DNA of 64,000 nt from Methanosarcina sp. MTP4 (GTDB taxonomy: Archaea; Halobacteriota; Methanosarcinia; Methanosarcinales; Methanosarcinaceae), in NCBI RefSeq assembly GCF_000970045.1, contig NZ_CP009505.1, forward strand, positions 1 to 64,000, read 5' to 3'. This document shows, in pieces, positions 2,251 to 5,618 of this stretch. Numbering within the stretch: the stretch's first letter is position 1; every line of letters begins with the position of its first letter. The position numbers and the translations under genes are program-made. The notes below the pieces were generated by a model. That model had not been told where the DNA came from, ran no database searches, and saw only the letters and a program-made list of their open reading frames with translations.

Positions 2251-2258
2251 CTTCCTTT
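2251..2258. repeat. Target site duplication, left copy (CTTCCTTT)
   Basis: These eight bases directly abut the left inverted repeat and are repeated exactly at 3986-3993 abutting the right one. The target lies in a pyrimidine-rich intergenic tract. Confidence 0.93.
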
Positions 2259-3985
2259 GTAACAATTCACGTTTTAGAAGATTTCCAGATTAATTTTTAA
2301 ACTTTGTTCAAAGGTCCGCAACTAAAAAATAATATTTTCAAAACATTTTTTTACTTTGAAAAATATATTAGCCATTCAATGAAGAACGTTCCTCAAGATG
2401 AAACAAAAAACATGAAGGAACAAGTAAGTGATTTGGAACAAAAAATCACACAATTAAAGGAAGAACTCGAAAAAGAGCGTAACGAGAAGCAAAGCAGTTT
2501 GCAGCACGTAGAAAAGCTCAAAACAGAGAATGACAACCTCACAAAGCAAACTGAACGCTTCAAAGAGCGTGCAAAAAACCTCAGAAATGAAAATAAATAT
2601 CTCAAAAAACAACTTGCTCAATTTTAGGGTTCTGCACCTGTTCTCGCATCATCTGACAAGACTTCTGAAGCAGGTGGTGTTCCATCATCTAAAACTTATT
2701 ACCGGCGAAATAGACAGGAAGGGCCGAAAAAAGCCAGAGGTGGTCAGCCTGGACATGTTGGACACGGGCGAAAAACACCAATTCCCAACTCTCCTCCTAT
2801 ATATATCAAAACGGAAGAATGTCCATGTTGCGGCACTCCTCTGGGCAAACCTGTTAAAGGTGCCAAAGAAACCCGTACCATCACTGAAATCCCAGTTCCA
2901 AAACCTACTATCTTTGAAATTATTTATCAAAGATATTGGTGCAAAAAGTGCAAAAAGATGGTTCGTGGAGAAGTTTCATGGATACCACCAAACCAGGAGT
3001 TTGGACCTTCTATAGCTTCATGGGTTGCTTATCAGCGAATGTTAGGATTGAGTATAGAAAAGATTCAATCCAGCTTGTATGAGACATATAATATCAAGAT
3101 TAGTAGAGCCACTGTGCTTAAACTGGAAAAATGGGTGGCAGATACACTTCAGGAAGACTATGAGAAACTCCATAAAGAAATAGTAAGATCAAAGGCTGTC
3201 AATGGCGACGAAACGGGATTTAGGATAAACGGTAAGAATAGCTGGTTATGGGGTTTTACTTCTTTATTAGGTACTTACTATAAAGTTTCTCCAACTCGTG
3301 GTCACATAGTACCGGAAAGAATACTTGAAGGATTTAAAGGTGTTCTGGGAAGAGATGCCTGGAAACCGTATGATGTAGTAAAATGTGCGGGACATCAGCT
3401 TGACCTTCTTCATGTGAATAGGTGGTTGGAAAGAGCTGAAATTAAACACAAGATAGAACCTCGAAGTCTTTTAACATCCAAGCCTGCAAAAAGGACAAAA
3501 CCTGGAAGACCACCTAAAAAGTTCATAGAATTCGTTGATGGTGTTCGATCAATTCTGAAAAGAGCAATTGAGTTCACGCAGAAAGATCCGCCTCCATCAA
3601 TGGAAAAACGTAAAAATGCTTGTAAAGAGTTCCAAAAAGAGATGAAGGCTCTACTCAATAGACAATGGACTGATGTGGATGTCATCAGAATATCAAAAGA
3701 GCTTCGAAAGAGACAGTCCATGCTATTTACGTTCATGGAATTTGAGGGAGTACCCTGGCACAATAATGACGCAGAGCGTGCGATGCGTAAAGGAGTATTG
3801 CATAGGAAAATTAGTGGTGGGAGAAGGACATGGTACGGTGCTGGAGTATTTGAAGTGCTTCTGAGTATTTATGAGACGTCAAAGATGAGGGGGAAAAGAT
3901 TTATGGAAATGTTGAAGGAAAAATTTGAGATACCTCCGAATGAAAGGAGTAGAAATACCTCAGCTTCTTAAACGTGAATTGTTAC
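2259..3985 (+). mobile_element. IS66-family insertion sequence, complete
   Basis: The element is 1,727 bp. Its ends are 22-bp inverted repeats at 2259-2280 and 3964-3985, starting GTAACAATTCACGTTT and differing at one base; GTAA termini are typical of IS66. It is flanked by perfect 8-bp direct repeats CTTCCTTT (2251-2258 and 3986-3993), the target duplication length of IS66. It encodes a single TnpC-type transposase and no TnpA/TnpB, like the single-gene branch of the family. The transposase stop codon lies inside the right inverted repeat. Perfect duplication and nearly identical ends indicate recent insertion between cdc6 and the next gene. Confidence 0.95.
2379..3971 (+). CDS. tnpC: IS66-family transposase (TnpC) with in-frame UAG
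   Basis: One continuous frame encodes a ~530-residue IS66 transposase, interrupted only by TAG at 2625-2627 (codon 83). Before the stop is a charged coiled coil. After it come a GGQPGH linker, a zinc finger (CPCCG...CKKCKK) and the DDE domain with GDETGFR, and HNNDAERAMRKG near the C-terminus. The downstream frame has no good start for 110 codons, and zinc-finger residues precede its first ATG (2958), so the two halves are one gene. In Methanosarcina, UAG can be decoded as pyrrolysine, giving full-length protein; otherwise this is a nonsense mutant. ATG 2379 is the likeliest start; TTG 2304 and ATG 2412 are alternatives. Confidence 0.88.
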
Positions 3986-3993
3986 CTTCCTTT

Positions 3994-4207: not shown

Positions 4208-4272
4208 AATTAAAAGGTTCAATTAAAAGGTTCAATTAAAAGGTTCAATTAAAAGGTTCAATTAAAAGGTTC
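4208..4272. repeat. Five 13-bp tandem repeats in the UPF0200 leader
   Basis: The unit AATTAAAAGGTTC is repeated five times perfectly, followed by a degenerate copy up to 4285. The array ends about 20 bp before the ATG of the next gene. Each copy carries AAAGGT, which resembles a weak ribosome binding site, so the array is part of the mRNA leader. Confidence 0.9.
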
Positions 4273-4292
4273 AAATTAAAGGATAATTTATA

Positions 4293-5498: not shown

Positions 5499-5618
5499 AC
5501 ATCTTTACGTCCCATATCTTTACGTCCTACATCTTTACGTCCCATATCTTTACGTCCTACATCTTTACGTCCTACATCTTTACGTCCTACATCTTTACGT
5601 CCTACATCTTTACGTCCC
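5499..5618. repeat. Eight 15-bp tandem repeats
   Basis: Eight copies of ACATCTTTACGTCCT, two of them starting ATATC and three ending in C, fill the space between UPF0201 and the next gene. The array is 43 bp upstream of the next start codon. It has no spacers, so it is not a CRISPR array. Confidence 0.9.

Follow-up and report, generated by a model that had tools for sequence, protein, structure and literature searches.

An IS66-type insertion sequence downstream of orc1/cdc6

The window analysed here, the first 64,000 nucleotides of contig NZ_CP009505.1, carries a complete IS66-type insertion sequence directly downstream of an orc1/cdc6 gene (960-2204) (Table 1). Its 1727 bp hold a single transposase frame, which matches the Pfam domains zf-IS66 and DDE_Tnp_IS66, the zinc finger and DDE domain by which the family is recognised, and scores 267.8 bits against the NCBIfam IS66 transposase model, whose cut-off is 180. 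IS66 elements are bounded by 8-bp target duplications and GTAA-type inverted ends, and the window element has both, the duplication being perfect. It lacks the accessory genes tnpA and tnpB of the canonical IS66 group, which the ISBst12 subgroup of IS66 is not known to have either; it belongs to the family by its transposase, and not to the canonical three-gene group. Three tandem-repeat arrays (640-730, 4208-4280 and 5499-5617, with periods of 15, 13 and 15 bp) flank orc1/cdc6 on both sides, their repeats matching at 98-100% in the first two and at 93% in the third. These arrays are possibly related to a replication origin.

Table 1. Features of the insertion sequence and its transposase gene (positions in the window)
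Feature	Position	Strand	Remark
Left 8-bp target duplication	2251..2258	.	CTTCCTTT
Complete IS66-type insertion sequence	2259..3985	+	1727 bp; inverted ends GTAACAATTCACG/CGTGAATTGTTAC
IS66 transposase frame	2379..3971	+	530 residues if the UAG at codon 83 is read through
Coiled-coil product if the UAG terminates	2379..2627	+	82 residues
Site A, the TAG in frame that is proposed to encode pyrrolysine	2625..2627	+	CAG, CTG or TTG in relatives from other genomes
Linker and zinc finger, from the TAG to the first in-frame start (ATG 2958)	2628..2957	+	In-frame translation only by readthrough
10-bp RNA hairpin, 21 nt downstream of the UAG	2646..2680	+	Possible stimulator (weak hint)
DDE catalytic domain (PF03050)	3000..3842	+	Residues 208-488 (Pfam)
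Right 8-bp target duplication	3986..3993	.	CTTCCTTT

Re-reading the transposase frame confirmed the claim of the sequence-only reading that one frame runs through the gene with a single interruption, a TAG at codon 83, which is its only stop before the terminal TAA. An AlphaFold2 model places residues 6-84 in a single long helix, with a disordered linker beginning at residue 83; the model is of low confidence overall (pLDDT 57.8) and was used only for the N-terminal helix, where pLDDT is about 72-85 over residues 11 to 80, and for the boundary with the linker. Helix and frame length agree with the earlier proposal that termination at the UAG would give a short coiled-coil product. Among solved structures we found no relevant relative of the transposase. 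The hairpin downstream of the UAG is perfect in both UAG copies and weaker in most sense-codon relatives. Over the 100 nt downstream of the UAG the RNA fold is not unusual (z +0.65) and gives no clear PYLIS-like signal; the PYLIS element is not essential (PMC2933860).

The genome, a single contig of 4.21 Mb, contains three copies that are identical over the whole element, including the one in the window. The other two lie between perfect 8-bp duplications, AAATAAAT and GATTTAAT, each different from CTTCCTTT, so the three copies represent independent and recent insertions of the TAG form, in keeping with the recent insertion that had been read from the window copy. A fourth, older copy (3267397) is 95% identical to the window element; its codon 83 is likewise TAG, and the 1448 bases that align show no frameshift. 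This older copy is located within an apparent IS21-type istA gene and is itself interrupted by an insert of ~240 bp (L004 2577-2818; G000:C1 about 3268847-3269085). The insert is bounded by inverted ends, AGCGTGTCTTAAAATTCAA...TTTGAATTTTAAGACAGCCTC, and is probably a mini-element of the non-autonomous kind. A fifth place in the genome, at 2351233, contains a fragment of the element. Within the genus, the related genome G002 carries an internally deleted remnant (L015, about 1343-1985) that has kept its ends and lost its N-terminal half, so codon 83 cannot be scored there.

Probable pyrrolysine decoding and selection beyond the amber codon

The sequence-only reading had pointed to pylT and pylS as genes that the genome should contain if the UAG is read as pyrrolysine. 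Both are present, together with pylB, pylC and pylD, in one pylTSBCD cluster. The tRNA-Pyl gene is 100% identical over 69 bases to the tRNA-Pyl sequence used as query, and the adjoining pylS, pylB, pylC and pylD all score over curated cut-offs. PylC was found by TIGR03909; a search of the genome by PF21360 gave no match, an artefact of that model. Two mtmB genes with one in-frame TAG each serve as an internal positive control, and TAG terminates 0 of the roughly 41-42 long non-overlapping frames in the window, barring one spurious frame inside the element.

A comparison of the window copy with the 95% copy indicates that the frame beyond the TAG is maintained as protein. The neutral expectation was obtained by placing the same transitions and transversions at random in 20000 simulations. 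Across the whole frame beyond the TAG, the 67 substitutions cause 20 residue changes vs 35.9 expected neutrally, a number as low as that in none (0/20000) of the simulations; over codons 84-193 there are 7 residue changes vs 12.7 expected (P = 0.0036). By a Nei-Gojobori-type count, dN/dS is 0.29 for codons 84-193 and 0.24 for the whole downstream frame. Codons 84-193 of the window copy contain no in-frame ATG, GTG or TTG, the first start being the ATG at 2958, which falls within the zinc finger. In the 95% copy there is a single in-frame TTG, at codon 141. By these counts, the frame downstream of the UAG, including the stretch without a usable start, is under purifying selection. In simulation, the frame downstream stays free of new stops with a probability of 0.11. 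That the diverged copy retains the UAG is by itself weak evidence, as a random codon survives between copies 95% alike in about 86% of cases, and retention at this site is drawn from one genome with four copies, three of them identical, i.e., two sequence types.

These data bear on three explanations in which the UAG is not a pyrrolysine codon of a working gene. According to the first, the TAG is a nonsense mutation, the element is dead or dying, and its copies are pseudogenes that another transposase moved in trans. The partial and interrupted copies do show decay in the lineage. However, every IS66 match in the genome at E <= 0.001 is this same element, and none of these matches is an uninterrupted or sense-codon copy, so no source of transposase in trans is visible. 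The three fresh insertions with TAG, the purifying selection after the TAG and the simulated probability of a stop-free downstream frame also argue against it. This explanation is already largely refuted, and we consider it very unlikely.

According to the second, the gene is split: the UAG is a real stop, and re-initiation at ATG 2958, where a 337-residue frame opens, gives a DDE domain without coil and zinc finger. Such a start removes the zinc finger, the protein of the relatives is continuous, and codons 84-193 precede any in-frame start in the window copy, yet show purifying selection. We rejected re-initiation, which we regard as highly improbable. The third explanation accepts readthrough by a route other than pyrrolysine, either near-cognate suppression or a +1 frameshift into the open frame 2530-3015. 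Neither copy has a stop in the +1 frame across this region, but the frame ends at 3015 without joining the DDE domain and has accumulated 13 residue changes vs 7 in the transposase frame over the same stretch. The frameshift was rejected as a reading that is more changed and falls short of the catalytic domain; with a dedicated UAG-reading tRNA in the genome, we give little credence to any such route.

The earlier suggestion that the UAG may be read as pyrrolysine is supported by the pyl genes, by TAG in all copies that retain codon 83, by selection downstream and by sense codons in relatives without PylS (described below). Codon 83 is very probably decoded as pyrrolysine, a conclusion drawn from DNA sequence. 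With this decoding included, the best explanation, in which we place high confidence, is that the window element is an active IS66-type insertion sequence in a pyrrolysine-decoding relative of Methanosarcina.

Amber codons in IS66 transposases of Methanosarcina and its relatives

The sequence-only reading had also proposed comparing codon 83 among copies. All genome copies that retain the codon carry TAG, and sense codons appear only in other genomes. Neither of the two outcomes that the reading had set against its proposal was observed. The nearest relatives, 62-71% identical, come from ANME-2 genomes, an uncultured Methanosarcinales genome and Methanospirillum stamsii. They have CAG (L060, L077 and L078, the first two apparently one genome from two collections), CTG (L059) or TTG (L079) at codon 83. 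The peptide context in L078 is nearly identical to that of the window element (RLQGSAPVL vs QF-UAG-GSAPVL). The tested genomes behind L077/L060, L059, L078, L079 and L061/L080 contain no PylS over cut-off. They are partly incomplete metagenome-assembled genomes (MAGs), and absence of PylS from a single MAG is not proof; G126, which is 100% complete, and the isolate genome of Methanospirillum stamsii are both without PylS over cut-off. Homologues from genomes without PylS over cut-off are thus found to have sense codons where the window element has UAG. Phylogenetically, the two TAG sequences fall within the sense-codon sequences, with support of 96/92 and 95/98. The TAG of site A likely arose from a sense codon, CAG, and the simplest history is one transition, CAG to TAG, after the element entered a pyrrolysine-decoding lineage. 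A single-protein scan of viral contigs gave no match to the window transposase. L062, a transposase from another family of the order, also has a TAG, which was not counted because it is placed at the extreme C-terminus and the genome has no PylS over cut-off.

Methanosarcina-like genomes and the genus of the window also contain IS66 transposases that are less closely related (about 29% identity); these too have exactly one TAG, elsewhere than at site A. Across the range searched, a family taken as Methanosarcinaceae, we found three TAG sites, each upstream of the DDE catalytic domain. Site A, at the end of the coil, replaces Gln or Leu. Site B, just before the zinc finger (NPD-UAG-IIEHS), replaces Glu and is the TAG site in most distant copies; its column is GAA in genera g6, g10 and g14 and a proline codon, CCT, in the window element, which does not belong to the site B group. 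Site C, inside the zinc finger (HDL-UAG-ETEA), defines a smaller group. Sites A and C form one clade each in the tree, and site B reflects one or two gains. Genera g6 and g10 decode pyrrolysine and have IS66 transposases without TAG, so pyrrolysine decoding alone does not force TAG, a pattern that agrees with a remark on M. burtonii (PMC2933860).

All of about 60 near-full-length copies in the genus containing G082 have TAG. At site B, 16 sequences with identities as low as 58% all have the TAG, although only 53/502 codon columns are invariant among them. Unlike these near-full-length copies, decayed IS66 fragments in Methanosarcina-like genomes (L116, L117 and L121) have lost TAG: at site B, two remnants in G098 encode His and Tyr, respectively, and at site C a remnant in G085 encodes Leu. 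The TAG-less fragments and the near-full-length TAG copies together offer a natural test for selection on UAG. Genome G102 of genus g13 (L119, L120) contains many IS66 pieces of identical length that stop at contig edges, probably collapsed repeats. Several of these start after site B and cannot be scored there, their N-termini being absent from the assembly.

These observations bear on why the UAG is present, about which a further explanation differs from the one we explore below; pyrrolysine decoding is common to both. Under it, UAG is a tolerated, near-neutral sense codon with no regulatory role, and a CAG to TAG change became fixed by drift in a part of the linker where the residue matters little. 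Site A lies at the start of the disordered linker in the AlphaFold2 model, relatives tolerate Gln and Leu at codon 83, frames in the window hardly ever terminate in TAG, and the same has been proposed for the tRNA-His guanylyltransferase (Thg1) of M. acetivorans, a precedent (PMC2933860, PMC8211752). What speaks against neutrality is the invariance of TAG at site B, together with the two remnant fragments that have His or Tyr there, and the fact that TAG occupies three different positions within one family and precedes the DDE domain at every one of them. The evidence from invariance and remnants applies to site B; site A, taken alone, may be decoded neutrally. We regard neutrality as a serious contender, though somewhat short of probable.

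A possible gate on transposition and its known counterparts

In the mechanism that we propose, one message would carry the UAG at the end of the region encoding the N-terminal coiled coil, and release factor and pyrrolysyl-tRNA(CUA) would compete there, giving two products. Termination would release the 82-residue coiled-coil peptide, and insertion of pyrrolysine at position 83 would yield the 530-residue transposase. Only the long form would have the zinc finger and DDE domain and be able to transpose the element. More speculatively, the coil of the short peptide may enable it to interfere, and the UAG may be kept by lowering or gating transposase output. No dedicated signal would be needed, because UAG introduced into reporter genes is read through, relatively efficiently and with no special element required, given tRNA-Pyl, PylS and pyrrolysine (PMC2933860).

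The residue replaced differs among the three sites, each of which precedes the DDE domain, so their common factor is partial interruption of translation and not residue chemistry. By this comparison, pyrrolysine is more likely to throttle the output of transposase than to act in catalysis, and we suspect that the UAG itself is selected for, acting as a brake or a pyrrolysine gate. The three TAG sites in related transposases also make it more plausible that, as the sequence-only reading had suggested, transposition is tied to pyrrolysine supply. In its full form, our proposal is that UAG was gained independently at least three times between coil and DDE domain in Methanosarcina and a sister genus and kept by selection as a programmed switch, with transposition throttled by, and confined to hosts or states with, charged pyrrolysyl-tRNA, and with a coiled-coil peptide that may inhibit. 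We advance this tentatively; it may well hold, but we would stop short of calling it probable. Almost no natural use of pyrrolysine outside the methylamine methyltransferases is understood, and an amber codon here vs a sense codon in the nearest relatives from genomes without PylS is a clean natural experiment on the entry of UAG into proteins. That three positions in one transposase family have become amber suggests that interrupted reading is what was selected. If this is true, the pyrrolysine code would be a regulator of transposition, and Methanosarcina, being genetically tractable, would allow a test.

Four near-full-length amber IS66 copies are found in G074, which we take to be M. acetivorans. 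Transposases with amber codons have already been reported from M. acetivorans and M. mazei (PMC2933860, PMC1914089, PMC3639795); two transposase clusters were listed (PMC3639795), and some transposases are among the few pyrrolysine proteins (PMC8211752). Because the four copies in G074 match the four amber transposases counted in M. acetivorans (PMC1914089), the published elements are most probably site B IS66 elements. In the openly licensed literature we found no paper that treats the lineage of the window element or the existence of several amber sites. The window element adds a separate IS66 lineage, one whose TAG occupies a position of its own.

Like the window element, the known amber transposases occur in pyrrolysine-decoding Methanosarcina and have one conserved in-frame UAG; their lineages are only about 29% identical to it and have the UAG at site B or C, not A. 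The relatives in ANME-2 MAG HMMV-459A3, Methanosarcinales MAG CSMAG_2503 and Methanospirillum stamsii Pt1 share its domains and are 62-71% identical through the transposase, but have CAG, CAG and TTG, respectively, where it has TAG. With the methylamine methyltransferases MtmB, MtbB and MttB it shares the combination of UAG and tRNA-Pyl in one genome; pyrrolysine is catalytic in those enzymes, whereas in the window transposase it would sit at the junction of coil and linker. IS1/IS3-type elements use programmed -1 frameshifting. If the gate reading holds, recoding between the N-terminal and catalytic domains would set the ratio of short to full product in the window element as it does in theirs, although the two are not homologous and the window element would use stop-codon readthrough by a dedicated suppressor tRNA in place of frameshifting.
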